This document shows positions 1 to 47,901 of a stretch of 64,000 bases of DNA, piece after piece. The DNA is from Corylus avellana (lineage: Eukaryota; Streptophyta; Magnoliopsida; Fagales; Betulaceae), in NCBI RefSeq assembly GCF_901000735.1, contig NC_081543.1, forward strand, positions 13,279,369-13,343,368. Direction: 5' to 3'. Position numbers and translations under genes: made by a program. Under the pieces are notes generated by a model that worked only from the letters and a program-made list of their open reading frames with translations, was not told the origin of the DNA and did no database searches. Position 1 is the stretch's first letter. Every line of letters starts with the position of its first letter.

Positions 1-359
1 CTCGCGTGCTCTTCCATCTGACCTACGCCTTGAAGAGCAAGAAGAGAGAGGATCCTGTGAAAATATTCATAGAAGAGCAATTGCGAGTTACTGGGTTAGA
101 AAGAGCCGATATTAAAAAAACAGGAGTTTTAAAGGACGATTCACTTGAGCAATAAGGTGTTATATAAAAATGAAGTTGAGTCATTTTCTTTATTCTTCTT
201 TCCACCTCTTCTCGCCTTAACTCCAGAGTTGAGCAAGTCTATTTTTCGTTTCACTTATATAAAAAAGCTCATCTACACCTTAATAGACGGCCAGAGGCCA
301 TCGATGGCCTCTTCTCTTCTACCTCCCCTACCCCTCCCACTCCCCTTCGCCCTCCCCCC

Positions 360-367
360 TATATAAA
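360..367 (+). promoter_or_regulatory. TATA box, unit 1
   Basis: TATATAAA lies 46 bp after a C-rich, pyrimidine-rich tract and about 54 bp before the ATG at 414. The same arrangement (CT-rich tract, TATA, ACAGAGGATTCG-like leader, CACCATGG) is seen upstream of the intact orphan gene, so the promoter was duplicated together with the gene body. Confidence 0.7.
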
Positions 368-413
368 CAGAGGATTCGAGAACCCCTCTCTCCATTCCAT
401 TCACACAGTCACC

Positions 414-970
414 ATGGCTAACCACTCTTTGATAAAGTGTTGTCTTGTAATGCTTTGAGGGATAGAGTCATAAAACTAGTTTTCGGAGGCAAGAGTATTG
501 GGCTTTTGCTAGCTCCATTCCCGATTTTGACCACCCCCTCCTTTTAAATTAAGCGTTACCTTCAAAGGAGAGCGTATGATAAAGCCAAATTTGTGCTCCA
601 CCTACCAAATAAAATTGGGTGATGTCATCATTTAGATCCATCTAGGAATGGGGGCTAAGAGTTGGCTGCCACATAATTTCAAGCAGGTTGTAACCTCAGA
701 CAACCTGCCTGAAATTAAGTTGCAGCCGCTCTTAGCCCCAATATTAGATGGATCTAAATGATGATCACCCAGTTTCATCTACTGGCAGAGAGACAAATCA
801 CCCAAGATGAGATTAGTTCTAGAGAAATACGCCTCCTGCATGAAAATAAAATAAAGCCAGAAGATATAATTTCCTAAATGATAAAATCAGCTACATACAG
901 TAGTTTATATACACAGCTGATGCGTGTATATTTACAAGACGATCCCATATTATGTGAAATTTGTTAATTA
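414..970 (+). pseudogene. Orphan-gene copy with foldback, unit 1
   Basis: This starts at an ATG in CACCATGG context that aligns with the start of the intact 261-aa orphan protein (MANDW...). The frame breaks after a few codons, but nucleotide similarity to codons about 1-90 continues through the segment matching KAKFMLHL. There the parent sequence is replaced by an antisense copy of codons 105-130, followed by the sense copy. Downstream the sequence resembles codons 126-135 (LTQFHLLAE) and then diverges. The 69-codon ORF that is open in units 2-4 is interrupted here by TAA at about 876. It cannot make the parental protein; if transcribed it would give a hairpin RNA. Confidence 0.85.
617..770 (+). 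repeat. Foldback (inverted duplication), unit 1
   Basis: Left arm 617-691 and right arm 700-770 are reverse complements over about 72 bp with only scattered mismatches and small bulges; the loop is 8 nt (AACCTCAG). The right arm is sense and the left arm antisense to the segment encoding VDNLLEIKLQPAF...LNDDLT (residues 105-130) of the orphan protein. A transcript from the upstream TATA would fold into a long, nearly perfect stem suitable for Dicer-like processing. Processing is inferred. Confidence 0.9.
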
Positions 971-995
971 CAAAAGGTAACAAATATTGTTGGAG

Positions 996-1366
996 TTAAT
1001 GCATTCCCTTTGTAGTACAGGGTTCTTTGATACATGGCAGCTTCGAACTGTGTACAGCTTTATTTTCCTTTCTTGCATGACACTTGTTTTCCTTTTGAGC
1101 CTGACAGCTTGCTTGACATTCCTTTCTTGCATGATCTGATGATAATGAGGCTTGCCTTGTATGAAGGGAACCGGTACGTGATCTTGTAGTCATGGGCAGG
1201 ATTGGAGGATGGAGGAAAAGGTGATGGGGGAGTGAATGAATACTGAGGTGAGACAACACTAGGAGGTGTGGGGGTAACGTGGGTGTTAGAATGGGTCTTT
1301 TGGATTGAGGAAGGTGGGTGTGGGAGATTAGGAAGAGAACACCCGGTTTTGGAGTTGGAAAGCCTA
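996..1366 (-). mobile_element. Copia linker fragment, unit 1
   Basis: On the minus strand this encodes a Pro/Ser-rich stretch ending in MTTRSRTGSLHTR, a signature typical of the linker between integrase and reverse transcriptase in Ty1/copia polyproteins. The frame is disturbed. The same sequence recurs in units 2-4 and continues into a longer linker in unit 4 (to 6180). Confidence 0.75.
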
Positions 1367-1851
1367 TACCGGAACAACTTTAATTATAAATACAAAGTGT
1401 ATACCAGTGTTAAGGTAAGGCTGTACATTTGAAAATACTTCTGATTATCAAAGTTATTATTGCTCAAATCAAATGGCTGAAAAGGAAAAGGTTGGAGAAA
1501 AGCTGTCTCGCATGCTCTTCCATCTAACCAACGCCAAGAGCAAGAAGGGAGAGGATTCTGTGAAAATATTCCCAGAAGAGCAATTGCGAGTTACCGGCTT
1601 AAAAAGAGCTGATATTCAAAAAACAGCAGTTTAAAAGGACGATTCACATGAGCAATAAGGTGTTATATAAAAATGAAGTGGAGTCATTTTCTTTATTCTT
1701 CTTTCCACCTCTTCTCGCCTAAACTCCAGAGTTGTGCAAGTCTATTTTTCGTTTCACTTATATAAAAAAGCTCATCTACACCTTATCAGACGACCAGAGG
1801 CCATCGATGGCCTCTTCTCTTCTACCTCCCTCTCCCCCTCCCCCTCCCCTC

Positions 1852-1859
1852 TATATAAA
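1852..1859 (+). promoter_or_regulatory. TATA box, unit 2
   Basis: TATATAAA follows a CCCCCTCCCCTC tract and lies about 47 bp before the ATG at 1906, matching the spacing in the other units. Confidence 0.7.
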
Positions 1860-1905
1860 CAGAGGATTCGAGAACCCCTCTTTCCATTCCATTCACACAG
1901 TCACC

Positions 1906-2462
1906 ATGGCTAACCACTCTTTGATAAAGTGTTGTCTTGGAATGCTTTGAGGGATAGAGTCATAAAACTAGTTTTTGGAGGCAAGAGTATAGGGCTTTTG
2001 CTAGCTCCATTTCCGATTTTGACCATCCCCTCCTTTTAAATTGAGTGTTACCTTCAAAGGAGAGCATATGATAAAGCCAAATTTGTGCTCCACCTAGCAG
2101 ATAAAATTGGGTGATGTCATCATTTAGATCCATCTAGGAATGGGGGTTAAGAGCCGACTGCCACATAATTTCAAGTAGGTTGTAACCTCAAACAACCTGC
2201 CTGAAATTAAGTTGCAGCCGCTCTTAGCCCCAGTATCAGATGGATCTAAATGATGATCACCCAGTTTCATCTGCTGGCAGAGAGACAAATCACCCATGAT
2301 AAGATTAGTTCTAGAGAAATACGCCTCCTGCATGAAAATAAAATAAGGCCAGAAGATATATTTTTCTTGATGATAAAATTAGCTACATACAGTAGTTTAT
2401 ATACACAGCTAATGCGTGTATATTTACAAGACAATCTCATATTATGTGGGATTTGTTAATTA
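1906..2462 (+). pseudogene. Orphan-gene copy with foldback, unit 2
   Basis: Same structure as unit 1: ATG in CACCATGG, early frame break, similarity to codons 1-90 of the parent, the antisense/sense foldback, then a 69-codon ORF (2250-2459, starting MMITQFHLLAERQI) that is open here. The ORF begins inside the right arm and keeps the parental frame only for about ten residues (TQFHLLAE). Confidence 0.85.
2109..2262 (+). repeat. Foldback (inverted duplication), unit 2
   Basis: The arms pair over about 72 bp around an 8-nt loop (AACCTCAA). The left arm has private changes (AGTAGG for AGCAGG; GGGGTTAAGAGCCGA for GGGGCTAAGAGTTGG), so the arms are drifting independently while the fold is kept. Confidence 0.9.
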
Positions 2463-2489
2463 CAAAAGGTAACAAATATTCTTGGAGTT

Positions 2490-2862
2490 AATGCATTCCC
2501 TTTGTAGTGCAGGGTTCTTTGATACGTGGTTGCTTTGAACTGTGTACAACTTTATTTTCCTTTCTTGCATGACACTTGTTTTCCTTTTAAGCATGACAGC
2601 TTGCTTGACATTCTTTTCTTGCATGATCTGATGATAATGAAGCTTGCCTTGTATGAAGGGAACCGGTACGTGATCTTGTAGTCATGGGGCAGGATTGGAG
2701 GATGGAGGAAAAGGTGATGGGGGAGTGAATGGATACTGAGGTGAGACAACACTAGGAGGTGTGGGGGTAACGTAGGTGTTAGAATGGGTCTTTTGGATTG
2801 AGGAAGGTGGGTGTGGGAGATTAGGAAGAGAACACGTGGTTTTGGAGTTGGAAAGCCTATAC
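2490..2862 (-). mobile_element. Copia linker fragment, unit 2
   Basis: Minus-strand relic of the integrase-RT linker, nearly identical to that in unit 1, with frameshifts around the HPPILP / MTTRSRTG junction. Confidence 0.7.
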
Positions 2863-3359
2863 CGATACAACTTTAATTATAAATACAAAGTCTATACCAG
2901 TGTTAAGGTAAGGCTGTACATTTGAAAATACATCTGATTATCAAAGTTATTAATGCTCAAATCAAATGGCTGAAAATGAAAAGGTAGGAGAAAAGCTACC
3001 TCGCGTGCTCTTCCATCTGACCTACGCCTTGAAGAGCAAAAAGAGAGAGGATCTTGTGAAAATATTCCCAGAAAAGCAATTGCGAGTTACTAGCTTACAA
3101 AGAGCTGATATTCAAAAAACAGCAGTTTAGAAGGACGATTCACATGAGCAATAAGGGGTTATATAAAAATGAAGTGGAGTCATTTTCTTTATTCTTCTTT
3201 CCACCTCTTCTCGCCTTAACTCCAGAGTTGAGCAAGTCTATTTTTCGTTTCACTTATATAAAAAAGCTCTTCTACTCCTTATCAGACTGCCAGAAGCCAT
3301 CCATGGCCTCTTCTCTTCTACCTCCCGCTGCCCCTCCCCCTCCCCTTCCCCCTCCCCTC

Positions 3360-3367
3360 TATATAAA
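3360..3367 (+). promoter_or_regulatory. TATA box, unit 3
   Basis: TATATAAA after a CCCTCCCC-rich tract, 47 bp before the ATG at 3414. Confidence 0.7.
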
Positions 3368-3413
3368 CAGAGGATTCGAGAGCCTCTCTCTCCATTCCAT
3401 TCACACAGTCACC

Positions 3414-3968
3414 ATGGCTAACCACTCTTTGATAAAGTGTTGTCTTGTAATGATTTGAGGGATAGATTCATAAAACTTGTTTTCGGAGGCAAGAGTATAG
3501 GGCTTTTGCTAGCTCCATTCCCGATTTTGACCATCCCCTCCTTTTAAGTTGAGCGTTACCTTCAAAGGAGAACGTATGATAAAGCCAAATTTGTGCTCCA
3601 CCTAGCAGATAAAATTGGGTGAGGTCATCATTTAGATCCATCTAGGAATGGGGGCTAAGAGTTGGCTACAACTTAATTTCAAGCAAGTTGTAACCTGACA
3701 ACCTGCTTGAAATTAAGTTGCTGCCGCTCTTAGCCCCAGTATCAGATGGATCTAAATGATGATCACCCAGTTTCATCTACTGGCAGAGAGACAAATCACC
3801 CAGGATGAGATTAGTTCTAGAGAATTACGCCTCCTACATGAAAATAAAATAAGGCTAGAAGATATAATTTCCTTGATGATAAAATCAGCTACATATAGTA
3901 GTTTAAATACACAGCTGATGCGTGTATATTTACAAGACGATCCCATATTATGTGGGATTTGTTAATTA
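3414..3968 (+). pseudogene. Orphan-gene copy with foldback, unit 3
   Basis: As units 1 and 2. The 69-codon ORF is open at 3756-3965 and differs from unit 2 at a handful of residues (for example QDEISSREL against HDKISSREI). Confidence 0.85.
3617..3768 (+). repeat. Foldback (inverted duplication), unit 3
   Basis: About 70-bp arms with a very short loop (around TAACCTGA). Left arm contains ACAACTTAATTTCAAGCAAG; right arm contains CTTGAAATTAAGTTGCTGCC. The inner stem is the best paired of the four units. Confidence 0.9.
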
Positions 3969-3994
3969 CAAAAGGTAACAAATATTTTTGGAGT

Positions 3995-4366
3995 TAATGC
4001 TTTCCCTTTGTAGTGTAGGGTTCTTTGATATGTGGCAGCTTTGAATTGTGTACATCTTTATTTGCCTTTCTTGCATGACACTTGTTTTCCTTTTGAGCAT
4101 GACAGCTTCATTGACATTCCTTTCTTGCTTGATCTGATGATAATGAAGCTTGCCTTGTATGAAGGGAACCGGTACGTGATCTTGTAGTCATGGGGCAGGA
4201 TTGGAGGATGGAGGAAAAGGTGATGGGGGAGTGAATGGATACTGAGGTGAGACAACACTAGGAGGTGTGGGGGTAACGTGGGTGTTAGAATAGGTCTTTT
4301 GGATTGAGGGACGTGGGTGTGGGAGATTAGGAAGAGAACACAAGGTTTTGGAGTTGGAAAGCCTAT
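3995..4366 (-). mobile_element. Copia linker fragment, unit 3
   Basis: Minus-strand integrase-RT linker relic as in units 1 and 2. Confidence 0.7.
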
Positions 4367-4860
4367 ACCGGTACAACTTTAATTATAAATACAAAGTCTA
4401 TACCAGTGTTAAGGTAAGACTGTACATTTGAAAATACTTCTGATTATCAAAGTTATTAATGCTCAAATCAAATGGCTGAAAAGGAAAAGGTAGGAGAAAA
4501 GCTGCCTCGCGTGCTCTTCCATCTGACCTATGCCAAGAGCAAGAAGAGAGAGGATCCTGTGAAAATATTCCCATAAGAGCAATGGCGAGTTACTGGCTTA
4601 CAAAGAGCTGATATTCAAAAAACAGCAGTATTGAAGGACGACTCACATGAGCAATAAGGTGTTATATAAAAATGAAGTGGAGTCATTTTCTTTATTCTTT
4701 TTTCCACCTCTTCTCGCCTTAACTCCAGAGTTGAGCAAGTCTATTTTTCGTTTCACTTATATAAAAAAGCTCATCTACTCCTTATCAGATGGCCAAAGGC
4801 CATCGATGGCCTCCTCTCCTCTTCCTCAGCGCCCCTCCCCCTCCCCTTCCCCCTCCCCTC

Positions 4861-4868
4861 TATATAAA
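4861..4868 (+). promoter_or_regulatory. TATA box, unit 4
   Basis: TATATAAA after a CCCCTCCCCTTCCCC tract, 47 bp before the ATG at 4915. Confidence 0.7.
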
Positions 4869-4914
4869 CAGAGGATTCGAGAGCCCCTCTCTCCATTCCA
4901 TTCACACAGTCACC

Positions 4915-5471
4915 ATGGCTAACCACTCTTTGATAAAGTGTTGTCTTGTAATGATTTGAGGGATAGATTCATAAAACTTGTTTTCGGAGGCAAGAGTATA
5001 GGGCTTTTGCTAGCTCCATTCTCGATTTTGACCATCCCCTCCTTTTAAGTTGAGCGTTACCTTCAAAGGAGAGCGTATGATAAAGCCAAATTTGTGCTCC
5101 ACCTAGCAGATAAAATTGGGTGAGGTCATCATTTAGATCCATCTAGGAATGGGGTCTAAAAGTCGGCTGCAACTTAATTTGAAGCAGGTTGTAACCTCAG
5201 ATAACCTGCTTGAAATTAAGTTGCAGCCGCTCTTAGCCCCAGTATCAAATGGATCTAAATGATGATCACCCAGTTTCATCTACTGGCAGAGAGACAAATC
5301 ACTCAGGATGAGATTAGTTCTAGAGAATTACGCCTACTGCATGAAAATAAAATAAGGCTAGAAGATATAATTTCATTGATGATAAAATCAGCTACATACA
5401 GTAGTTTATATACACAGCTGATGTGTGTATATTTACAAGACAATCCCATATTATGTGGGATTTGTTAATTA
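4915..5471 (+). pseudogene. Orphan-gene copy with foldback, unit 4
   Basis: As the other units. The 69-codon ORF is open at 5259-5468 and ends in the same LCGIC as units 2 and 3. Confidence 0.85.
5118..5271 (+). repeat. Foldback (inverted duplication), unit 4
   Basis: About 72-bp arms, loop about 8 nt (AACCTCAG). The right arm carries CAAATGGATC where the others have AGATGGATC; the left has GGGTCTAAAAG for GGGGCTAAGAG. Confidence 0.9.
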
Positions 5472-5496
5472 CAAAAGGTAACAAATATTCTTGGAG

Positions 5497-6356
5497 TTAA
5501 TGCATTCCCTTTGTAGTGCAAGGTTCTTTGATACGTGGCAGCTTTGAATTGTGTACAACTTTATTTTCCTTTCTTGCATGACATTTGTTTTCCTTTTGAG
5601 CATGACAGCTTGCTTGACATTCCTTTCTTGCATGATCTGATGATAATGAAGCTTGCCTTGTATGAAGGGAACCGGTACGTGATCTTGTAGTCATGGGGCA
5701 GGATTGGAGAATGGAGGAAAAGGTGATGGGGGAGTGAATGGATACTGAGGTGAGACAGCACTAGGAGGTGTGGGTAACGTGGGCGTTAGAAGGGGTGGTT
5801 TGGATTGAGGGAGGTGGATGTGGGAGATTAGGAAGAGAACACGTGATTTGGGAGTTGGAAAGAGAGGCACACGTGGCTTGGGAAGGAGATGGTTGACATG
5901 GTAAATGTGTAGGAGTATGGGCTGTAGGTGAATGACATGCTAAATGGTTAGGAGTGTGGGCTGTTGTGGATGGTGTAGCAGAAAAATCAGCAAAGTGAGG
6001 GGACCCAGTGTCACGAAAATTCTCAAAAAGTTGCAGGGGAGTGGGGTTAGGTGCAGCAATATTAGGTGAAGGACATGAAATAGTTGTAGGAATGGAAAGA
6101 CTTACCGTAGGAGGGACCGGGTGATTAGATGATGCATTAATCTTGGATGGCAGTTGAAAATGAGCATGATCCTTTGCAGGNNNNNNNNNNNNNNNNNNNN
6201 NNNNNNNNNNNNNNNNNNNNNNNNNNNNNNNNNNNNNNNNNNNNNNNNNNNNNNNNNNNNNNNNNNNNNNNNNNNNNNNNCATAATCTGAAATTGTCGGA
6301 TCCATCGAACTGCATCACGTCGAACTTTGCAGAAGATGTACCAACCCTAGCCAGCA
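5497..6356 (-). mobile_element. Copia remnant: linker, gap, gag start
   Basis: Minus strand. 6283-6356 encodes the gag N-terminus (VGTSSAKFDVMQFDGSDNFR), identical in style to the gag of the element at 44585-47817. After the 100-N gap, 5761-6180 encodes the Pro/Ser/Thr-rich linker between integrase and RT, then the TTRSRTG motif near 5694. Gag and linker are normally about 2.5 kb apart, so either the gap hides most of gag-protease-integrase or the element is deleted. RT and RNase H are absent here, replaced by the tandem array. Confidence 0.8.
6181..6280. other. Assembly gap (100 N)
   Basis: Exactly 100 N, the usual arbitrary scaffold-gap length. It falls inside a Copia element, so true missing length is unknown. 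Confidence 0.98.
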
Positions 6357-6361
6357 TATAT

Positions 6362-6378
6362 TAGGCTCTAATACCAAT
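6362..6378 (-). other. Primer-binding site of the Copia remnant
   Basis: On the minus strand the bases following the LTR read TTGGTATTAGAGCC, close to the TGGTATCAGAGC site complementary to the 3' end of initiator Met-tRNA used by many plant Copia elements. Confidence 0.7.
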
Positions 6379-6704
6379 TGTTGTTACCATGCACAATAAT
6401 TGATGAACAATATAGAATCGAAAGGAGAGAGAGAGAGAGAGAGTCAAAACACAGATTTAACGTGGTTCGGCGCTTTGCCTACATCCACAAAGAGGTGGCT
6501 GTATTTTTACTCATAATGATTTACGGTTACATCATACATATATATAGAAAAACCTTAAACCCTACTTGTACGGACTTATTAAGAAAATTTCCAAAATACC
6601 CCGTATCGTACCTCTCGCTCCGTGAACGTCGCTATAGCGATGTTCACTCCGCTTTCGTCTACTTGGCCTTCCACTGGTATTAACATGAGCCACCAGTTCC
6701 AACA
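6379..6704 (-). mobile_element. Copia 5' LTR, 326 bp
   Basis: Bounded by TG...CA (plus strand TGTTGTTACC to GTTCCAACA) and homologous along its length to the LTRs at 38597-38891, 42880-43212, 44585-44900 and 47495-47817. It contains a (GA)n tract near 6424. It is followed by GCCAA, the same 5 bp that forms the target duplication of the complete element at 38597-43212. Confidence 0.88.
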
Positions 6705-6787
6705 GCCAAAGACACACATTACAATTGTGTAGTGTTAATATGGGGGATTAATAGGATGCTCTTTTTTGGAATTTATGATATGGAAAG

Positions 6788-6962
6788 GAATTGGCGACCA
6801 TGAACCCATTTGATTTGCCAGACAACGACGACTCTGAGGATCCATCATAGCTGATCACAGCCCAACAGCAGAAGGCAGCTGTAGCTCAGCCCATGAAGCT
6901 AAATCCAATGGCTCAAGTCAAGCAATCGCGGATCACTAAGCAGCATTAGACCAGACCACTGG
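6788..6962 (+). pseudogene. RGG/Stm1-type RNA-binding protein, exon 1 relic (copy 1)
   Basis: Similar to the N-terminus of plant RGG-box (HABP4/Stm1-like) proteins: MNPFDL, a DDD acidic run, then a Gln/Ala-rich stretch, ending at a splice donor (CTGG|GTAAGC). The initiator ATG preceding GCGACC is lost (ATT here, ATG in the 43297 copy) and CAG has become TAG at 6852. Only the first exon is present; no downstream RGG repeats follow. Confidence 0.7.
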
Positions 6963-7029
6963 GTAAGCTTCCCTTTAGATTTTTCCAACCTAATGAATGT
7001 ACTATATTTGCTCTCTTGCGTTGATATTA

Positions 7030-7260
7030 AATTATAAAATAGATGATATCCCACTCCTCCTCAGCGCCATATTCCGGTGACGGTGAGACGTTTAGATTGG
7101 AAACACCCTGAGACAGACAAAAATGAGAGTTAGAAAAATAGAAATCGTTTGATTAAAAGAAAAATAATAATACTCACAAGGGCTCAGTGTCTTCTGGCCT
7201 CGTGAACGCCGGCAATTAATAATGGCTTGCTGGACCTCCGTTGGAAGAGCACGCGATGCA
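7030..7260 (-). pseudogene. Orphan gene 3' end fragment (copy at 7 kb)
   Basis: Minus strand. It matches the end of the intact orphan gene: QAI(I)N joined directly to the last codons (a deletion also present at 43.7 and 48.3 kb), then GAGCCCTT|GTGAGT donor, a short intron ending in TTTGTCTGTCTCAG, and a last exon GGTGTTTCCAATCTAA. The conservation of donor and acceptor in this fragment supports a 3' intron in the parent gene. Confidence 0.7.
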
Positions 7261-7438
7261 ACTTTTCTCCTACCTTTTCTTTTCAGCCATTTGATTTGAA
7301 CATTTACTCATTACAGCTTTTTTACACCAGCTTTTTCACTTTTTTGACAGACACACTCCATCCCTTTTACTGTTTTACACGCCGATTAATGTTTATGCTT
7401 TTTTTTCTTTTTACTGAGCTCTTTTTTTTTTTTTTTTA
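7245..7438. other. Orphan-gene upstream flank plus poly-T joint
   Basis: 7245-7420 resembles the flank upstream of the orphan gene at 27050-27190 (CCATTTGATTTGAACATTTACTC and following), ending in GAGCTC and a run of about 17 T (7422-7438) where the LINE begins. The poly-T may be a minus-strand LINE poly-A tail or a recombination joint. Confidence 0.55.
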
Positions 7439-8895
7439 ATAATTCTCTTTCTATCTTCAATTCTTAGTTTCAGCTGCTATTATACGCTGTCAGGACAATC
7501 TTAATTCTGCCCGGCATAAAAAATCCACACCATTTGTGGTAGCAAACTTAGAAAGAGAATGTGCAGCCTGGTTTTCTTCCCTCTTAACAAAGCTCATTCT
7601 CTATTGAGTAAACAAATGGAGAGTCATCTTTATGTCTTCCACAACATGGCCCAGTCGACTCCAGTCAGCCTCTTTGCGGTTCGCAGCATCTATGATAATC
7701 TTAGCATCCCCTTCCAGGTGAACATGAGTGAACCCTAGGTCCCGACACAAGTCTATAGCCACTAAAGCTGTCATTGATTCAGCCGCTGTCGATGAAAGGT
7801 TCCCCCACGAGAGAAATACCTCACAGCTACCACCTGGCCATAGAAATCCCGTATCACCACGCCACCTCCCATGCGCCCCTCCTTGCTATTCAAAGAGGCA
7901 TCCTAGTTTGCCTTAAACTATCCCGGGCTTGGAGCCTCCCACTTTTGCATGCCATCTGTTGCATGTTCACTTCCCTTACATCCTGTGCTTCCATAAATTC
8001 TTGTAGCTTGTTTTAGTATAACATCCGGGTGGGAGAAAACTCCACCATGCAAAATATCATTGCGTCTCAGCCAAATCCGTCGTGCTAGCCCAGCAAATAA
8101 AGCAATCTCTTCTTGATTACATCTCCGGAACATCCCTTCTACTACCTCCAAGAAACTGGAGCCATCAAAAAAACTCTTTTGGAATTTTATAGGACCCATA
8201 CCTCAAACATCCAAAGCTGCCGGGCATTGCCATAAAATGTGGAAACCTGTTTCCTCCATGAAGCCGCAAATTGGACACTCTGGATCTTGAATTACCTTCC
8301 ATTTGAGCATATTTTCCCGGGTAGGAAGGATGTCATGACAAGGTCGCCAAAGAACAATTTTTTCAATGTTCAGAATTGCCAAACTCCACAGCTTTTTCCA
8401 AACTTCATTGACCCCCCTACTAGGGGAGCCCACACCTAATTCTTTTGCTACAGTTTCCAATTGCATATGGTAAGCACTCTTGACGGAAAAAATTCTGTTT
8501 GTAGTGCCTTTCCAAATCAATGTATTCTGCTGGTTCGTGCGGCTAATGGGATGGATTGGATCAATAGGAGCTCCTCCTTGGAAAAAATCTGCTCTAGTAA
8601 CTCGACATTCCAGCCCCTTCAAATCTTCATCAATTAATTCCCCCACAGTGGCATCCGAATTGAGGATAGTTGTCGGAGAAACCACTCGGAATGTAGACGG
8701 ATTAGGAATCCACCTATCCTTCCATATTCAAATAGTAGCTTCATTCCCAATACGCCATATGCCATAGTAGTCCTTCCTTCAACACTTCACAAGAGCTATG
8801 AATGCTCCTCCATGAAAATGAAGGCCTAGGACTCACCTTGGCATCTAAAATAGACCCATCTGGATAATATTTCCTTTTATAATCTTTGCAACTAG
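7439..8895 (-). mobile_element. LINE copy A, 3' part (zinc-finger and RNase H)
   Basis: Minus-strand L1-type plant retrotransposon. 8203-8685 encodes the zf-RVT region downstream of reverse transcriptase (KSAYHMQLE, KIVLWRPCHDILPTRENML, CPICGFMEETGFHILWQCP, giving the C-x2-C...H-x4-C finger). 7560-8200 is the region of the RNase H-like domain, broken by frameshifts; the intact version is in copy C at 55282-55770. The element is split from its RT half (17464-18150) by the CACTA insertion. Confidence 0.88.
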
Positions 8896-8898
8896 ACT
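8896..8898. other. CACTA target-site duplication, left (ACT)
   Basis: ACT directly precedes CACTAC and recurs at 17464-17466. The undisturbed LINE copies read CAACTAGACTCTCCAGTT (50014-50031; same at 56640), with a single ACT. Confidence 0.95.
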
Positions 8899-8927
8899 CA
8901 CTACAAAAAAAACACTTTAGGCCGGCG
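8899..8927 (+). repeat. CACTA left terminal inverted repeat
   Basis: Starts CACTACAAAAAAAACACTTT and ends GGCCGGCG. It matches 17435-17463 in reverse complement with one T/C difference at about position 18. Confidence 0.92.
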
Positions 8928-9520
8928 CCCAAAAAACGCCGTGGAAAGGGAAAAAAACGCCGGGAATTGCATTCCCGGCGTTAACACCAAACGCCGGTTT
9001 TAACAGTGTCGGCAAAGCTGTTTTCCGGCGCTTTGGGCGACCGCCGGTGAAGAGAATGGAAAAGCCGGCGTCTTCTAATCACGCCGGAGAAGGGTTCTGT
9101 GCCGGCGTGATCTGTCAACGCCGGCAGAGGAGGATGCCGGCGTTTTCTGTAAACGCCGGAGAAGAAAGTTCTGCCGGCGTCATCTGTTGACGCCGGCAGA
9201 GAAGGATGCGACGGCGTCCACTGTCCACGCCGGCAGAACTTCCTTCTCCGGCGTTTACAGTAGACGCCGGCGAATCCTCATCTGCCGGCGTCAACAGAGA
9301 ACGCCGGAGAAGGAGCTGTGCCGGCGTCAACAGTGGACGCCGTCACAACTTCATTCTCCGGCGTTATCTGTCGACGCCGGCAGATGAGGATTCGCCGGCG
9401 TCTACTGTAAACGCCGGAGAAGGAAGTTCTGCCGGCGTTTGCAAAAGATGCCTGTGCATCCTCCTCTGCCGGCGTCATCTGTGATTCCTCCTCTTCCTTC
9501 TCCGGCATTGTCTGCCAGAA
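8928..9520. repeat. CACTA left subterminal repeat array
   Basis: About 25 copies of ACGCCGG / CCGGCGT in both orientations, spaced roughly 15-30 bp, separated by variants of TTCTGTAA, GAGAAGGA and TCATCTGT. Such arrays are the transposase-binding and methylation-sensitive subterminal regions of CACTA elements. They create open frames on both strands that are not genes. Confidence 0.85.
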
Positions 9521-25608: not shown

Positions 25609-26394
25609 TTACACGGGCTCAGCGTCTCCTTGTCTCGTGAACGCCAGCTTCAACTTCTTGGACTCCCGACGGTACCAGATTCGAAGGATGCTGTCGATAT
25701 CAAATTCGGGAGCAACCCCGCGGTTTGCAAGGTAGTTGGTAATGTTTATGAAAACTTTACAGTATTCAAGGGGGCTAATACCCGTGACGCCTTGGCCTTT
25801 CTCAAAGCGAATATCAGCGCCATAACTTACCATTTCAACCGGAGGGAAAACTTGAACAGATATAAACGAGCCATCATTAATTGCTTGCTGGAGCTCCTCT
25901 GTACAGATGTTATAGAAGGGCCTTACATCCATCTGAGGTAGGCAGATTTCCTTGTTAATAATAACAGCCGGGGTGATTTGTGTTTCTGCCAGCAGATGAA
26001 ACTGGGTCAGGTCATCATTGAGATCCATCACGGCCTGAGGGCTGAAAGCCGGCTGCAGCTTTATTTCAAGCAAGTTGTCAACCCACCTGTAATATGCGTC
26101 AATCCTACGATGAGGATTGAAATCCACATTTCCAGGGAGGTGCAGCATAAATTTGGCTTTACCAGGTTTCAGGGAATAGACCAACAGGAGATCATCATGA
26201 GGCGCTCCTCTGAAAAGAACCCTCGTGTTGAAATTCAGTGTGAAAGAAGGAGGCCGGGGATGGTTGAAAATTTCATTGGGAATGGAGCTAGCAAATTGCA
26301 CGTAGTGTTGCCTCCAAGAAGTAGTTATGCGTCGAACCCTCAAATCTCGATCAGACAACATTTTATCAAAGAGGGCTGACCAATCGTTAGCCAT
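25609..26394 (-). CDS. Intact orphan protein, 261 aa; apparent source of the foldbacks
   Basis: Single long frame starting MANDWSALFDKML. I chose the ATG at 26394 because it lies about 75 bp after a TATA box and matches the conserved ATG of the tandem units; a longer upstream frame has no ATG. I do not recognise the family. It is a soluble-looking, mixed charged protein with no signal peptide or membrane segment. Notable stretches are HPRPPSF (45-51), KPGKAKFMLHLPGN (76-89), WVDNLLEIKLQPAFSPQ (104-120) and QVFPPVEMVSYGADIRF (181-197). Residues 105-130 are encoded by the segment inverted-duplicated in five foldbacks. An intron may follow codon 260 (GAGCCCGT|GTAAGT), adding LFPN. Neighbours are F-box genes and transposons, which give no functional clue. 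Confidence 0.75.
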   Translation of the reverse strand: MANDWSALFDKMLSDRDLRVRRITTSWRQHYVQFASSIPNEIFNHPRPPSFTLNFNTRVLFRGAPHDDLLLVYSLKPGKAKFMLHLPGNVDFNPHRRIDAYYRWVDNLLEIKLQPAFSPQAVMDLNDDLTQFHLLAETQITPAVIINKEICLPQMDVRPFYNICTEELQQAINDGSFISVQVFPPVEMVSYGADIRFEKGQGVTGISPLEYCKVFINITNYLANRGVAPEFDIDSILRIWYRRESKKLKLAFTRQGDAEPV

Positions 26395-26770: not shown

Positions 26771-29500
26771 CATGATCAGTACAAATCTAGGCGAATCAAA
26801 AGCAGGCACATCTGTGTTATGAGTTATTTAATAATAAAAAACACTGTCTAAAAAATCTTTAAAAATTGTTTTGCAAAAAGTAAACCTGATTTCCTCCTTT
26901 GTAAACTGATGACCGACTGCTCTGAGGCTGAAGATATGCAGATCGAGGCTGAAAGAAGAAGAAAGGAAAAGGAACCCGTGTTAATTTAATGTCTCACGTG
27001 GGTAGATGTTGCCTTTACTCACCTCAATAAGGGAGCCAGCTTGTCTCAACCTTTACTTTCCAGCCGTTTGATTTGAACATTTACTCGTTACAGCTTTTTT
27101 ACACCAGCTTTTTGACTGACACACTCCATCTCTTCTACACGCCATCAATGTTTCTGCTATTTTCTTTTTACCGAGCTCTCCTTTTAAAAAAAAAAATTGA
27201 AAAAGTAAGAGAATAATCATTTTACAAATTTTATATCTATTTTTTAATTTAATTTTTGTTAAACAAACTCTAAAAAGTACAGAATATTTAGTTTTATATG
27301 GTTATTTAGTCATTTCTCTTTTGTCTCGATTTCTCTTCTTTTTTTCTTTTTTTTTTTAAAAAAAAACTTTAATTTTTAAAAAGATTTCTAGGAGTGCTCA
27401 AGTAGATCAAAATCCTATGACTTAAACAAAATTTTTGATTGGCATTAAAACCCTTAATTGATAGAAATTTCCATTGAAAATAATAATAATAATTATTTTT
27501 TATTTATTCAGCAAATTGAATTTTGAACCCTTTCCATTCAGTAAAGCCGTGTATATATATATATATATATATATTAAATAAATGTTAGTAGTATATTCTA
27601 TTATTTTAATTTGACCATTGTCAAAATAAATTTCTGATTTTGCCATTGGACACGAGATAAACCCAACATTAGACATTTATTTTTAATTTGTTTAAACATA
27701 TATTTTCTTAATGAATTAGTGTATTTAATAACATGATAATTTTTTATTCGAACTGGATTTTAATTTTCAATTTCCTACATAAATATCCGTACTTGGGCTT
27801 TGGCTTAGGTCTAGCTCCAACTCCAACTTCAACTTCAACTTCAACTTCTTGGGATTGTGACATATCAGAAGATAAAGGGACACTTGTCTCAATCTCAATC
27901 GGTTCAATTTCACAATTCATACTAGAGTTATTGAGGACATGAGAGGGCTTGACTTTGACCACATTATAGGACTTAAAATTAATTAAAGCCAAATTATAAT
28001 ATTATACACCCAAAAAAAAAAAAAAAAAAATTGATTCGTCTCTATATATCAATTGGTTACTTACTTGTCATACAAAAGTAATCAATGAGAGCATCTGAAA
28101 AGGCAAAGTTCAGCAACCGGTGCCTTTATATATCAATCCGTGAAAAAATGTTCCTTCCAACAACCACAGGTCCACAACCAAGTGAATTATAGAGTAGAAA
28201 TTAGAACTTGCCAGCATTGCAAAACAATCTCTTAATTAATTAAATAGGTTTATTTAGTGGTTGAACCATTTTGCTTTACTTCAACCAAAACCGAAAGAAG
28301 TAATTATGATTATTCCAGACTTGGATCCTTTCTATTTCATTTGAAATAGAAAGAACAAGTTAATTGTTTTTAGGAGGTAATTTCGTTATTTTTGTGGCTC
28401 CCTATTTTTTATTTGGACAAAAATAACCTCTTAAAACAACTGAATGAATCTCTTCTCCAATATTTCGAAATAAATAAGGCTTAAAAAATCGATAACAATA
28501 AATAAGGGAATCAAATCATAATCAAATATTCAACCCTAATTATGAGATTCTAAAATATTTTATTTTTGAAAATATTTTTACAATTAAGAACAACAAAAAC
28601 ATTTTTGGTTTTTTATTTAATTTTAAGAAATTAAAATCACTAGACTATGAAAGTGATTTATTTTGGTTTTTTTATTTTATTCCTAAAACATGTGTCATTT
28701 CTTATATATATAGATACGGGTTTTACATTTGATTTGATTTATAAGTGTGTATTGAATTACATCTGACATGGAGTAATTTTGGCTAGCTAGGATCATACAT
28801 AATGAAGCCAATGAGGAGCTCTTCTACATCGATCTCATTCGTTTGGTTCTAGACATGATCATCAAAGAGAGATATATATAATTGTCAATATCGTTTGTTA
28901 ATTGTTTTCTTTTATCGCATAAACATGTTTATTATTAATTATATATCTGCCCCTTACCAATTAAGATTAATATTTTGATTCCGGTGATATTTCAAGATTT
29001 TTATTTCTCTGAGCTTATGAGAGTGTTCCTCCAATTGATCAAGCTCCCAAGAACCATAATCTTTTTCTCTTTTTTTTTTTTTTTTAAAGAGAGAGAGAGA
29101 GAGGAGCTAGAGGGCAAAATGCATCCACCGATTATGCTTAACCTAATGCATAATTTACATTTTTTTTTTCTAATCAGCATAATTTAATTTACATGTTTGA
29201 CTTGCACAACGCTCTAGCTTAATCGACTTGTGGCAGGATTTTTTTCCTAGTTTCTGTCCCTCATCACATACTCAAAGACTAGCTTGCAGGATAATATTTG
29301 TTGTTTCGCAGATTAAAATCATAATAATCATGAGATCGAAGATGATTTTCAACATGCACATAAAAATAACATAATATACCTGCCTAGGCCTAGCTAGGCC
29401 CCCTTATTGAACATGCATGTTCTTGAAGATAAATCAAACGCATGATTAGGCCATCATGCCGGCACAAATATAACCCCCACCTTAGCCCCCCCCCCCAAAA
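26770..29500. other. Intergenic block, duplicated at 52.9-54.4 and 58.2-59.3 kb
   Basis: 26880-28440 is nearly identical to 52865-54430; 28470-29500 to 58190-59280 and in part to 51440-52310. It holds a CTTCAACTTCAACTTCAACT minisatellite (27822-27850), (TA)n at 27552-27574 and the SINE empty site at 28453-28467. No gene is supported; the open frame at 27744-27992 is a repeat-driven shadow. Confidence 0.7.
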
Positions 29501-29508
29501 TATCATCC

Positions 29509-30579
29509 TTATTCCTTGTCATTGTCAGCATCGAGAAGGAGGAGGCTTCCCACACAAAAGTAAGGCAAAATGAGATCAACGGGTATATTTTCAATCTCAA
29601 CAATCCTGCGTGTCTTCTTTTTGATGTCATACCAATAGAGTTCCATTAAGTGACTCTCAATTAGTTCTCCGGTAAAAACCTCTTCGCCGTCACGTGAGAA
29701 CACTAAAGGTGGGTAGTTGGTAAAAGCTCGCTCCATCGCATAAAGCAAAGTCCAACTACTTACTATCCCATACTCCTTCATCACCCAAACTTCACAGAGA
29801 TCCTGAAAAACTGCACAAAGCCATCCTCCCAAGTCCACCAAAAAGACACGCAAATTGATTGAAGAATTAACAGGAAATTCATGCACTCGGAATTTTTCAG
29901 TGCTGAGATCAAATGCAACATGGACCTTTTTTAAGTCCGCCACAAGAGTAACCATCCAATGGAAAGCACCGTTGGAGAAAATGGCCCGGTAAGTGTAGCA
30001 GAAATGTGACAATTCCACAATAGGCCATTCTTCTTCCACCATTCTCCAAGAGTGTTCTCTTAGACTGTATACCTCAAGACTATATTTTCTTCTTCCATCC
30101 CGTCGATAGAACTCCACTAACCTTAAAACCTTGTAGTCGTCGTTGACTCTGTCGTGTCCAAATGCGAAATGGTCATGACTCAACTCTTCTCTGGGCTTAG
30201 AGGGTAATTTTTTGTATTTTCTAATTAATGGGTTCCATATCACAGTCTCATCGTTGTAGTTGTTGATGCAAACCAGGCCATTGCAAGAGTCTACAATACG
30301 GTTGCTTTCTGAGTGGTGTAGTGGGTGTTGGATCTTCACAGCCTCGCCGAACCGATCCTCGTTGGACAAGTTTACAATGAGGAAATCGAGTGGCTCAGAG
30401 CTCGCTAAAATGAGGATGCGTTCTTTGGAGCGACTGAGATGCAAATTGATGAAATGTGAGTCGTTGATTATTAGGGCGAACCATGACTTGGAAACACACT
30501 GAAACCGAACAAGAGGCTTGATGGGTAGTATGGAAAGTATCTGGGTTATGAGCTCTTGCGGGAGATGAGTCGTCTTCAT
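29509..30579 (-). CDS. F-box protein with F-box-associated domain, copy 1
   Basis: Intact 356-aa, intron-free frame, the usual length for this family. Residues 5-45 form the F-box (LPQELITQILSILPIKPLVR, then FQCVSKSWFALI), which binds SKP1/ASK in SCF ubiquitin ligases. Residues about 95-340 form an FBA-type domain (DSCNGLVCI, WNPLIRKYKKLP, FGHDRVNDDYKVLR, WRMVEEEWP, FSNGAFHW, WVMKEYGI), which binds substrates. It resembles the CPR1/CPR30 group, but no substrate can be inferred. The TATA and leader lie in the flank at 30580-30760. Copy 2 at 59287-60357 differs at only three residues that I see (F/Y in EPLDFLI, S/T in KLPSKP, Y/C in CYTYRA). Confidence 0.93.
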   Translation of the reverse strand: MKTTHLPQELITQILSILPIKPLVRFQCVSKSWFALIINDSHFINLHLSRSKERILILASSEPLDFLIVNLSNEDRFGEAVKIQHPLHHSESNRIVDSCNGLVCINNYNDETVIWNPLIRKYKKLPSKPREELSHDHFAFGHDRVNDDYKVLRLVEFYRRDGRRKYSLEVYSLREHSWRMVEEEWPIVELSHFCYTYRAIFSNGAFHWMVTLVADLKKVHVAFDLSTEKFRVHEFPVNSSINLRVFLVDLGGWLCAVFQDLCEVWVMKEYGIVSSWTLLYAMERAFTNYPPLVFSRDGEEVFTGELIESHLMELYWYDIKKKTRRIVEIENIPVDLILPYFCVGSLLLLDADNDKE

Positions 30580-30598
30580 CGATCTTGAAGTCTTTTGG

Positions 30599-30614
30599 TA
30601 GAGTCTAGACTCTA
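30599..30614. repeat. Perfect 16-bp palindrome in the F-box leader
   Basis: TAGAGTCTAGACTCTA lies 20 bp upstream of the start codon and is also present in copy 2 (about 60377-60392). It could be a dimeric protein site or chance. Confidence 0.5.
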
Positions 30615-30619
30615 GAGAG

Positions 30620-31651
30620 AGATTTGAAGTGATGAAGGTAGTCGGTTAGTTTTGCATGCTATGGCTGTCGCAGAGGTTTAATTAATTAAGGTGGTATTTA
30701 TGGTGGTCGGTTCGGTCTACATTATTTCTTTCTATATATATATATATATAATCAGTGCAAGAATCAAATATTAATTAAGCTCAAATATCCTTACAGAGAA
30801 TCAATGGCATTAATCCAGCTGTCCGTGATTTATGTAATTTTCCTGTTATAGTTAGTTAATTAATTAATATGGGTTGGTTGATTCTCATTAATATTTGTAA
30901 TCTTTGAAATTGATATTTAGATCCTTATATATAATTGATACCTGCAATTGCAGTTGCATGTCAAATTAATTTTACAACAATCTTTCCTTAATGTACGGCC
31001 TTTTTCCCAACGCCCTTTATTTTGGATTCATCTTTCCTTTCTAAACACAATATGCATGCCTTAATAATATCAGTTTTAATTAATAAAATCAGTTTTAATA
31101 AAATTTCTTATGATTTACCTACAAAAGAAAAAAGTAGTTATCTTTCCCCTCCTCCTAGTTATCTTATTTGTATTCTAGTGCGCTTTAATTTCATAATACT
31201 TCTATTTGATACGAAGAAAAATAACATCAAAATAATTGCATACCAATGATAAATAATTAAATACGACTAGAAGCAATTAATTAGACATGCAATACTAGTG
31301 TGGAATAAAGAAATTATTTATGTTAATTTTTTGATAAATTATATTAAAATATAATATAATTTTATATTGATTAATTGTTAGCCCGCCCCTACATTAACGA
31401 GATCCTATCTCCTCCACTGCCAATGGGTCCAATTCCACAATTGATACGAGAGTTATGGAGGACATGAGAGGGCGTGACTTTGATCACACTATAGGACTTG
31501 AAATTAATTAAAGCCAAATTATATTATACACCCAAAAAAGAAGTTGATTTGTTAGTGAAATTTCTCTTTTCTTTATATATCAATTGGTTACTTTTTTTTA
31601 TCATATACTTGTCATACATCTGAAAAAGCAAAGTTGAGGAGCAACTGGTGC

Positions 31652-31691
<40 letters not shown>

Positions 31692-31850
31692 ATCGGTGAA
31701 AAAATGTTCCTTCCAACAACCACGACCAAGTGAATTTCAAAGTAGAAATTAGAGCTTGCCAGCATTGCAAAACAATCTCTTAATTAAACAGGTTTATTTA
31801 GAATCATTTTGCTTTAATTCAACCAAATCCTTAACCACTAAAACCAAAAA
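30620..31850. other. F-box upstream flank, no gene
   Basis: Same sequence at 60400-61650, with differing (TA)n length at 30733-30750 and 31656-31690. Part is also copied at 18200-19040 and, inverted, at 23640-24110. AATTAATTAATT-rich; no gene is supported. Confidence 0.7.
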
Positions 31851-31856
31851 AACCAA

Positions 31857-32580
31857 TTATCCCAGACTTGACCTTGTCACCTCATATGCCAAGAAGCATG
31901 CAGCATTTGCAGGAACACTTCGGGCCATGGCAGGTCCAAAGCCCCTGTACAACCCTTTTACTCCCTCCGAAGCCAGGATCTTTCTAAAGGCATCAATGGA
32001 GCCAGAGAACTTAGGATTTTTGTAATCATCTCCCTGAATTACACTTTTGATCACATCAGTTGGATAGACTGAAAGCCAGAAGGAATCTCCGGCCATGCCT
32101 CCAGCCACAATCAAAGAGCCTCTTCCTAATCCAAAAGTGTCTTGGCCACCTGCTAGGTACTGCTTCAGAGCTTCATAGACACCAAACATTGCAGCATTTC
32201 CGGGAACCTCACGTGCCATAGTGGGAAACAACCCCTTGAAGAGACCCCTTACACCCCCTTCTGATCTGAGAACATGCCTAGCTACATCCATTGGTCCACC
32301 ATACTTCATGGCCACACCAGCCGCACCGGAATCTGCCAATGCACTCTGGGCTTGCAACCTGTTCTTTATAGCAAATCAAAAGAAGTTAACGGGTAAGTTC
32401 GAATTTTAGGAGAGTTTCCCATCTCAGGATTCAGAAATCAGATCACACACTACAAGGACAGAGAAAGTAACCACTAAAGTACTGACCTGCACTTGATCAA
32501 TTCAGTGGGGCAAGCTAAAATGGAAACGGCAACTCCAGCCCCTGTCCCCCCACAGACCAAGAGTGAGCCTTTAAAGTCAG
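31857..32580 (-). pseudogene. 5'-truncated BOU-like mitochondrial carrier, copy 1
   Basis: Two exons on the minus strand: 32487-about 32580 (GTGAGVAVSILACPTELIKC) and 31857-32358 (LQAQSALADSG ... to the C-terminal ARSVPANAACFLAYEVTRSS), joined at AG|GTCAGT and AACAG|G. They match plant A BOUT DE SOUFFLE, a mitochondrial carrier of the carnitine/acylcarnitine type used in photorespiratory metabolism. Signatures CPTELIKCR and YPTDVIKSV are present; the first repeat with its PFDTIK-type signature is missing, replaced upstream by unrelated DNA. About 195 of the usual ~300 residues remain, so it is a probable pseudogene, although the exon 2 frame is open. Confidence 0.85.
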
Positions 32581-32589
32581 CCTCCTTTT

Positions 32590-33029
32590 ATGCCAAATCC
32601 ATTGGGAGGTCCACAATGATCCACGGTGGTCCACTAATAAGGCCCATGTTCAACAGAGTCCAACCTGATCCGGATCGGCCCAATGACAAATATGTAAATG
32701 GATTCAAGATTGATACAAAAATTTCTCGTGAATTTGGGTTTGGGTGTAGAAATAAAGCCCTCATTGGACACATACCCTGCTACAAAGAGTTTCTTTTGTG
32801 CCTTGAAGAACGTAGTAGCAGAGGAACTGGGCGTGGATCGGAGCGGGAAGAAGCTTCTGGTCGCAGATCGGTGGCTCTGGCCTGGGCGTGCGACGGGATT
32901 GGTAGGACCTGCCGCCGCTGCACCAAGGATTCTGGGGCTGGGCGCGGATCGGATAGGGTAGAGCTTCTGGGGGGCGGATTGGTGGCCTCTGACCAAACGA
33001 GCACCACTGGGCACAGAAAACGTGTGGGC

Positions 33030-33064
<35 letters not shown>

Positions 33065-33596
33065 CAAGTGCATTCCAAAAAGATTCTTTAAAGATTTAGA
33101 GTATTTTGGGCTTATACATCCATATAGCTTTGCACCCATGGCTCTGCATGGAGCAACCATTCTTCAATTTCCTATATTCTGGTTGGAGCGGCTTTCAGCA
33201 AAATCAGAGATTCTAAAACCTTCAGTTTTTCCTTGCTGTTTATTTCTGTTGTGAAAAAAAAATGCTTATTCTCCAGTGAGCAATGAAATGGGAGGTCAGT
33301 TGTTGCCTGCATGCATTATTGTTGCAGTTTTTACAAATTTTGTTCTTCTTTATGTTCAATTGATCTGTGCGTGGGTGGTAGAAAATTTTAGTTATTTGAG
33401 TTTGAATTTTAGCTCTAAATCTTTAAAGAATATTTTTGGAATGTGTTTCTTGGTAGCTACTTTTGCAACTTGTACTTGAAAAATATTATCAATTCTAGTT
33501 GAAGTTTTGTTACAAGTTGATCTGCTTGTGGGCATATATGTTGAGATACAATGTGAATCTCGGATAAGAACATTGTTGGCATCTCTTGAATAGGTT
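32590..33596. other. HAL3 upstream region and leader
   Basis: Shared with 62391-63397 and, from 32999, with 63797-64000. It has a (CT)n tract at 33033-33061 and TTTTGAATAG-type acceptor sequence just before the HAL3 ATG, suggesting a 5'-UTR intron. GC-rich open frames on both strands at 32590-33030 lack any similarity I recognise and are treated as spurious. Confidence 0.5.
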
Positions 33597-41700: not shown

Positions 41701-41721
41701 ACCCTTAGTCACCTTTATTAC

Positions 41722-42855: not shown

Positions 42856-42865
42856 TGTAGATTAG

Positions 42866-42879
42866 GCTTTGATATCAAT
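42866..42879 (-). other. Primer-binding site of the complete Copia
   Basis: Minus strand TTGATATCAAAGCC directly after the LTR, a decayed version of the initiator Met-tRNA site TGGTATCAGAGC. Confidence 0.75.
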
Positions 42880-43212: not shown

Positions 43213-43296
43213 GCCAAAGACACACATTTCAATTGTCTAGTGTTATGGGCAATTAATACGATGCTTTTTTTTTGGAATTTATGATCTGGAAAGGAA

Positions 43297-43465: not shown

Positions 43466-43544
43466 GTAAGCTTCCTTTTGGATTTTTTAGACCTAATGAA
43501 TGTACAATATCTGCTTTCTTGCCTTGATATTAAATTATAAAATA

Positions 43545-44580
43545 GATGATATCCCACCCCTCCTCAGCGCCATATTTCGATGACGGTGAGACGTTTAGAT
43601 TGGAAACACCCTGAGACAGACAAAAAGGAGAGTTAGAAAAATAAAAATCGTTTGATTAAAAGAAAAAAAAAATAATACTCACAAGGGCTCAGCGTCTTCT
43701 AGCCTCGTGAACGACGGCCATTAATAATGGCTTGCTAGACCTCCTCTAGACAGATGTCATAGAAGCGCTTCACATCCAATTGCGGGAGGCATAATTCTCA
43801 GGAATTAATCTCATCCTAGGTGATTTGTCCCTTTGCCAACAGATAAACTAGTGAGGTCATCATTTCGATCCATCTGATGATACTGGGAGCTAAGAGCTGG
43901 CTGCAGCTTAATTTCAAGCAGGTTGTCAACCTACCAGCTGTCAAGTTGTAGCTGGTTTTTAGCCCCCAGTCCCAGATGGATCTAAATGATGATTTCACCC
44001 CGTTTCATCCGCTAGGTGGAGCACAAATTTAGCTTTATCAGACGCTCTCCTTTGAAAATAACGCTCAGTTTAAAAGTAGAGGATGATCAAAATCGGGAAT
44101 GGAGCTAGCAAAAGCCCTATACTCTTGCCTCCAAAAACTAGTTTTATGACTCTATCCCTCAAATCATTACAAGACAACACTTTATCAAAGAGTGGTGAGC
44201 CATGGTGACTGTATGGATGGAATGGAGAGAAGGGTTCCTGAATCCTCTGTTTATATATAGGGGAGGGGGAGGGGGAGGGGCAGCTATAGGTAGAAGAGAA
44301 GAAGCCATCGATGGCCTTTGGCCATCTGATAAAGAGTAGATGAGCTTTTTTCCATAAGTGAAACGAAAAATAGACTTGCTCAACTCTGGAGTTAAGGCAA
44401 GAAGAGGTGGAAAGAAGAAGAAAGAAAATGACTTCACTTCATTTTTATATAACAACTTATTGCTCACATGAATCGTCCTTCAAAACTGTTGTTTTTTGAA
44501 TATCAGTTTTTTGTAAACCAGTAACTCGGACTTGCTCTTCTGGGAATATTTTGAATCCTCTCTCTTCTTGCTCTTCAAGG
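43545..44580 (-). pseudogene. Orphan-gene pseudogene with foldback (43.5 kb copy)
   Basis: Minus strand. From right to left: leader matching the tandem units (44440-44580), TATA (CTATATATAA at 44251-44260), ATG at about 44206, codons 1-90 in broken frame, the foldback, then sequence similar to codons 147-172 (LCLPQLDVKRFYDICLEE), a deletion to the final codons, the GTGAGT intron and the last exon. It is cut upstream by the Copia at 44585. Unlike the tandem units it retains 3' coding similarity to the parent, so it may be an earlier form. Confidence 0.8.
43852..43999 (-). repeat. Foldback of the 43.5 kb copy
   Basis: GGTCATCATTTCGATCCATC...CTAAGAGCTGGCTGCAGCTT pairs with AAGTTGTAGCTGG...CCCCCAGTCCCAGATGGATC and TAAATGATGA. 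The stem is about 60 bp and the loop longer (about 35 nt) because the inner part of one arm is deleted. Confidence 0.82.
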
Positions 44581-47817: not shown

Positions 47818-47901
47818 GCCAAAGACACACATTACAATTGTATAGTGTTAATATGGGGGATTAATAGGATGCTCTTTTTTGGAATTTATGATATGGAAAG
47901 G

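Follow-up and report, generated by a model that had tools for sequence, protein, structure and literature searches.

A 64,000-nucleotide stretch of Corylus avellana DNA (contig NC_081543.1 of assembly GCF_901000735.1, positions 13,279,369 to 13,343,368 of the forward strand; hereafter the window) begins with a ~1.5-kb unit that is present four times, in direct orientation and in tandem, over positions 1-5862; each copy combines a TATA box with a long hairpin. Comparison with parent-like genes nearby suggests that this array consists of young hairpin genes, a cluster of proto-microRNA genes (proto-MIRNA) or hairpin RNA (hpRNA) genes, which derive from one inverted duplication of a local gene. 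We give this reading a probability of about 55%, and the same holds for the proposal that the units give rise to small RNAs which act on the parent gene family. One part of it, the origin by inverted duplication with the promoter included, appears close to certain from the alignments.

The evidence for this origin comes from comparison of the units with a gene in the same window, here called geneA (Table 1). The unit head matches geneA in sense orientation over at least 363 geneA bases, which comprise the promoter, the 5' untranslated region (UTR) and the first ~40 codons (66-69% identity). A further short sense match covers geneA codons ~77-86, and the remaining head aligns poorly. The 5' arm of the hairpin is antisense to a 103-110-nt segment of geneA (codons 104-140; 74-80% identity in units 1-4), while the 3' arm is sense to the same segment (75-77%, sequence beyond the arm included). 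GeneA codons ~87-103, i.e. ~17 codons, are missing from the unit at the junction. Because the arms are opposite-strand copies of one coding segment, the hairpin is an inverted duplication and not a miniature inverted-repeat transposable element (MITE). The inverted-duplication model of Allen et al. expects opposite arms with similarity beyond the 21-nt site and a promoter copied from the gene of origin. Here the homologous arms extend over ~105 nt at 74-80% identity, the unit heads match the promoter and 5' UTR of geneA, and a TATA box is present in all five units of the window. The alignments bear out a first-pass annotation of the window, which had proposed that the units derive from a protein-coding gene and that the promoter was copied together with the inverted coding segment.

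When 221 bases of unit 1 were used as the query against the assembly (370 Mb, 12 contigs), at least 15 matches were obtained, all at C3:13.28-13.354 Mb. The matches correspond to units 1-4, to two further units (5 and 6), to geneA and to a second parent-like gene, geneB; both strands were matched in all of them except geneA. These data bear on the alternative that the hairpin comes from a MITE or another transposon, which was inserted once and duplicated with its host unit. A long inverted repeat, a short loop and retrotransposon sequence close by would be in line with such an element. However, the matches obtained are confined to one locus, and either arm can be aligned with coding sequence of geneA and of geneB; the dispersed copies with terminal inverted repeats and without gene homology that characterize a MITE were not found. 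The transposon hairpin was rejected because both arms are gene-derived, and we rank it as the least probable of all the explanations considered.

The parent-like genes also contain a clue, suggestive only, to how the inverted copy may have formed. The hairpin centre coincides with a small palindrome in these genes (GTTG-A-CAAC in geneA, GGTTG-G-CAACC in geneB), and at the left junction a short stretch of similar sequence is shared by the overlapping sense and antisense copies. Fold-back priming at the central palindrome would yield a hairpin; an analogy for this step is fold-back priming at double-strand breaks (PMC10622511; here and below, the cited papers are represented by excerpts).

Table 1. 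Units, hairpins and parent-like sequences, in window coordinates.
Feature	Position	Strand	Remarks
Unit 1	1..1503	+	First few bases fall outside the window
Unit 2	1504..2999	+	
Unit 3	3000..4502	+	
Unit 4	4503..5862	+	Without the end junction of units 1-3; sequence runs on
Unit 5	43781..44575	-	~85% identical; hairpin within ~43815-44030
Unit 6	about 70709-71358	-	6.7 kb beyond the right edge of the window
TATA box, unit 1	360..366	+	TATATAA
14-codon frame, unit 1	414..458	+	At the parent's start codon; reads MANHSLIKCCLVML
Hairpin, unit 1	617..770	+	5' arm antisense, 3' arm sense to geneA codons ~106-140
Hairpin, unit 2	2109..2262	+	
Hairpin, unit 3	3617..3768	+	
Hairpin, unit 4	5118..5271	+	
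geneA	25609..26394	-	Open 261-codon frame, uncharacterised; TATATAA at 26476
geneA promoter, 5' UTR, first ~40 codons	26275..26637	-	Homologous to unit heads, 66-69% identity
geneB	73648 onward	+	Second parent-like gene, beyond the right edge
Deletion derivative of parent gene	7026..7304	-	Upstream region near 3' end, body missing; second copy 48139-48417

The promoter box and its spacing are shared by the units. TATATAA starts at 1852, 3360 and 4861 (+) in units 2, 3 and 4, and the TATA box of unit 5 is at 44257 (-); the distance from TATA box to ATG is 54 nt in all five units of the window. The same five carry a 14-codon open reading frame (ORF), with small variants of MANHSLIKCCLVML, and the parental reading frame is otherwise dead. 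The earlier statement that a TATA promoter was kept and the protein frame lost is thus correct for units 1-4. The hairpin starts about 200 nt after the ATG and ~250 nt downstream of the TATA box. Its homologous arms are ~105 nt long, so that the ~72-bp stem described before covers only the well-paired portion (~72 nt).

Folding of the + strand, a check suggested by the first-pass annotation, gave minimum free energies of -94.5, -83.9, -91.0 and -87.6 kcal/mol for units 1 to 4, with z-scores of -15.7, -12.5, -15.1 and -13.0; none of 200 shuffles was equally stable in any of them. The strongest stem is that of unit 6 (-119 kcal/mol). The minus strand of units 1-4 folds nearly as well (-81.6 to -92.4 kcal/mol) because the hairpin is an inverted repeat, and the fold alone therefore cannot tell which strand is transcribed. 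From the position of the TATA box we infer that it is the + strand. For units 1-5 we counted the registers in which the arms allow a 21-nt duplex with no more than 5 mismatches and no more than 3 asymmetric bases, the values of the plant MIRNA annotation criteria. All five hairpins contain such a duplex, in 23-56 registers each, as is expected of the foldback of a plant MIRNA gene. No Rfam family reached the gathering score anywhere in the window, and exact 16-18-nt arm strings had no match in the main texts of the open-access papers searched.

Next we consider the order of events. In a tree of the arms, the antisense arms of all six units are separated from the six sense arms plus both genes with branch support of 98/97, several inner forks being weak. 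The tree of the unit heads separates the six units from the two genes (100/100); unit 6 splits first, then unit 5, then units 1-4, within which units 3 and 4 group together. Both trees fit a single inverted duplication that would have preceded the copying of the unit. It follows that the stem and the loss of the frame in units 1-4 were inherited from a single recent ancestor. This weakens an argument of the first-pass annotation, that the stem survives in all four units while the frames do not, as the units do not provide independent evidence; stem survival is explained by youth. The proposed youth of the array agrees with the low divergence between units 1-4, whose pairwise Kimura two-parameter distances are 0.052-0.069.

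The earlier description of four units in tandem at ~1.5 kb holds for the array; there are six units in all. Unit 6 lies ~2.3 kb from geneB, a third, broken parent-like copy is present at 70019-70263 (+), and the 3' end of the parent gene (43604-43713) comes after unit 5. The six units and the two parent-like genes are all within ~75 kb. The sequence next to the window (20 kb on its left side, 30 kb on its right) contains short pieces of the upstream region, out to -18.9 kb at one end and +76.5 kb at the other; beyond it, another 100 kb in each direction gave no match (tblastn E<=0.01, blastn E<=1e-4).

Within the array the start-to-start distances are 1492, 1508 and 1501. The join of GTTGGAAAG to CCTATACC closes units 1, 2 and 3 and is not present after unit 4; another copy of it occurs directly left of unit 1, outside the window. 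A common join that ends units 1-3 and is missing after unit 4 is the product expected of unequal recombination from one founder junction. The sequence left of the window holds incomplete pieces of the unit and a run of N, but no full unit: from about -1829 to -1352 an inverted partial unit head is followed by the N run and then by a unit tail, which is joined directly to unit 1. As assembled, the tandem array is four full units; the assembly gap may hide another one. The unit tail (1191-1362 and equivalents) runs on past unit 4 to ~6357, into a minus-strand ORF at 5761-6357. A motif resembling a primer-binding site and a copy resembling a long terminal repeat (LTR) occur near this ORF, and by eye the region looks like antisense retrotransposon sequence. 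A Pfam search of 5761-6177 gave no match.

The sequence comparisons show the following steps. A promoter-bearing copy of the parent gene lost ~17 codons at a junction, and a coding segment of ~105 nt was turned into an antisense copy followed by a sense copy. The unit was then copied locally, giving rise to unit 6 and then unit 5, and finally four-fold in tandem. Transcription from the TATA promoter, which was inherited from the gene, would give an RNA that folds into a long stem. RNA polymerase II probably transcribes the units, and a Dicer-like enzyme would cut this stem; small RNAs released from the 5' arm, being antisense to the parent gene, may then target the mRNAs or the chromatin of its family.

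To estimate the capacity of the hairpins to silence the parent genes, we compared every 21-mer of the transcript read from the promoter strand around each hairpin with geneA and geneB, using a mismatch score weighted by position. Among 206 sense-strand 21-mers of unit 6, 24 scored <=2 against geneA and 35 against geneB, the best being without mismatch. The same threshold was reached against geneA by 1 of 169 in unit 3 and 1 of 171 in unit 4, at the site AGGTCATCATTTAGATCCATC with one mismatch at position 12, and against geneB by 3 of 171 in unit 2. In 20 base shuffles of the unit 3 hairpin, sampled at every fourth 21-mer, no geneA site scored <=4. Arms that descend from a gene necessarily beat shuffles, so these matches indicate capacity, not design. 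They point to unit 6, rather than the four-unit array, as the strongest candidate silencer of geneA and geneB. The drifted units 1-4 may be weaker, aimed at unseen paralogues, or decaying. In a putative hpRNA or small interfering RNA (siRNA) locus, a long stem would give siRNAs complementary to a gene; such a stem and such complementarity occur here and are most pronounced in unit 6.

The main competitor of the hairpin-gene reading is a neutral relic, namely a pseudogene with a chance inverted duplication, which was copied by unequal recombination as this repeat-rich stretch was reshuffled and in which the hairpin persists through youth. We consider this explanation a serious one, its chance being only somewhat short of even. 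Several results weigh on its side or against hairpin genes with a function. In an RNAalifold analysis of the six aligned hairpins the covariation term was unfavourable (+3.28). Changes on both sides occurred in 2 of 70 pairs versus a shuffled mean of 1.4, which is no excess, and paired cells made up 92.8% versus 92.7% in shuffles; six paralogues from a single species give such a comparison little power. The stem as a whole shows no constraint: its arms vary about as much as the flanks (variable sites in units 1-4: 5' arm 13/74, 3' arm 6/68, dead coding head 14/174, upstream 64/414). Constraint or covariation of the stem, which would support a MIRNA gene without being strictly required, was thus not found. 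Arms that diverge at the neutral rate without covariation had been named beforehand as a pattern that would speak against a small-RNA locus; it is present among the paralogues here, the comparison named for it being one of related genomes. Furthermore, unit 5 has an eroded inner stem, and the divergence between its arms is 35%, as compared with 15% in unit 6 and 20-22% in units 1-4 (gaps left out). The TATA box of unit 6 is degenerate and reads TACATAAA, and in units 1 and 5 no sense 21-mer scored <=2 against geneA or geneB. Finally, the window contains many other block duplications and gene-deletion derivatives.

The divergence between the parent-like genes likewise weighs against hairpin genes with a function. 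GeneA and geneB are 84.6% identical over 214 residues, after which the frame of geneB departs. By the Nei-Gojobori method (NG86) their nonsynonymous and synonymous divergences over 212 codons are dN 0.073 and dS 0.094, with dN/dS ~0.8. This ratio suggests little constraint between the two genes, so that their value as a target is not established. When geneA was compared by codon position with nine unit segments, third positions were not consistently in excess, and coding constraint on geneA is therefore not supported either. GeneA matched no Pfam family at E<=0.1 and had only weak matches among Protein Data Bank sequences (E>=0.24). A structure of geneA predicted without an alignment had a mean pLDDT (predicted local distance difference test) of 35 and was discarded.

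Two observations speak against a mere relic: all five units of the window retain the TATA box at its distance from the ATG, although the 70 nt around the box are at least as variable as the rest of the unit, and the stem of unit 6 is very strong. Plants dice strong transcribed hairpins whether these are selected or not, and hence the two explanations differ mainly on transcription and benefit. It is unlikely that the units are selectively maintained today. A MIRNA gene needs only a 21-nt duplex, which leaves room for weak selection. The 5' inner arm is variable at 10 of 37 sites, and 5.7% of all 37-nt windows are equally variable. A 19-nt run, TCATCATTTAGATCCATCT (625-643), which is invariant in units 1-5, was considered as a mature microRNA (miRNA) and rejected: unit 6 differs, and longer invariant runs (27, 26 and 20 nt) occur elsewhere in the unit, so the run is no evidence for a mature miRNA.

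The longest of these runs, 27 nt at 421-447, lies inside the 14-codon ORF. This position, together with the presence of the ORF in every unit of the window, could mean that the units act via the encoded peptide, or as 5' UTR or promoter decoys, and that the hairpin is incidental. However, by a rough estimate a 27-nt run is not improbable at this divergence, and unit 6 does not have the 14-codon frame; its ATG opens 47 codons, of which the first 23 are in the parent's frame. We regard this explanation as highly improbable.

Other repeats and genes occupy the rest of the window. Two LTR-like copies, related to each other, flank unit 5 (44595-44900 and 42904-43212), which raises the question of an element carrying this unit. 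Pfam identified Copia-type sequence nearby, with RVT_2 at 40166-40591 and Retrotran_gag_2 plus Pol_BBD at 41722-42462. A block of ~4.85 kb is duplicated at 99.0% identity (28871-33719 and 58651-63520); it contains an F-box gene, the beginning of a flavoprotein gene (Pfam F-box and Flavoprotein), which we take to be HAL3-like, and an ORF that by eye looks carrier-like. Further repeated blocks are 6281-8899 and 47397-50023 (97%) and 41476-43745 and 46086-48353 (87%). At 8899-9500, CACTACAAAAAAAACACTTT is followed by degenerate tandem CGCCGGC-rich repeats, an arrangement that resembles the end of a CACTA-type transposon.

By its origin, the array belongs with the known hairpin loci that arose by inverted duplication; as a MIRNA gene it is only putative. 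The nearest plant precedent is MIR163, which shares the copying of both promoter and foldback: its foldback arms are opposite gene copies and, on computational evidence, the gene's promoter was copied too (PMC1790633). The same source describes 16 Arabidopsis loci with gene-similar arms, nine of which are predicted to target other genes, and reports nearly all non-conserved families as single genes. In contrast, the units described here are four in tandem and two strays beside parent-like genes. MIR1444 of the Salicaceae arose by inverted duplication from its own target family, polyphenol oxidase (PMC5223194); it is present in one or two copies and expanded by genome duplication, whereas the copying here was local and in tandem. 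SULF in snapdragon and YUP in monkeyflower are taxon-specific small-RNA loci that go back to coding genes duplicated incompletely or in inverted orientation (PMC12371187), and YUP, according to the excerpt, silences a gene other than its source. In the sex-linked region of Populus, partial inverted copies of ARR17, for which the target is known, include an inverted pair that is covered by 24-nt siRNAs (PMC9636151); tandem promoter-bearing units are not described in the excerpt. In rice, tandem stem-loops occur within one precursor (PMC2607281). The matches listed in the open-access literature, which mostly leaves out subscription journals, included no plant tandem array with a gene-derived promoter and hairpin in each unit. 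The evidence also differs in kind: small RNAs were sequenced for MIR163 and the Arabidopsis loci, the miRNA is known for MIR1444, and SULF and YUP are tied genetically to flower colour, whereas the present array is known as DNA.

In layout, the array resembles clusters of Drosophila. The hp-tHMG cluster of Drosophila simulans contains 13 tandem hpRNAs over ~27 kb and three paralogues outside the inverted repeats (PMC10317233). As far as the excerpt goes, this cluster and hp-CG4068 share with our locus tandem gene-derived hairpins with parent paralogues in the cluster; the resemblance is one of layout only, and the Drosophila hairpins belong to an animal Dicer-2 pathway with measured siRNAs. 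By analogy, the locus could be for plants what the hpRNA conflict clusters are for Drosophila: a fast-changing, perhaps taxon-restricted gene family together with its own promoter-bearing hairpin suppressors, which derive from it and were amplified in tandem. We find this very doubtful. If it were true, successive ages would be present at one locus, with unit 6 fresh, unit 5 eroding and units 1-4 amplified, and the birth, spread and decay of gene-derived silencers could be read from one stretch of ~75 kb.

The origin of a new small-RNA gene from the gene that it silences is usually reconstructed from a single locus. In the stretch described here, the parent-like genes, the flipped copy, the promoter inherited with it and six copies that form a series of ages lie side by side, so that the order of the steps can be dated. 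The locus therefore makes it directly testable whether selection maintains new hairpins or these simply await decay.

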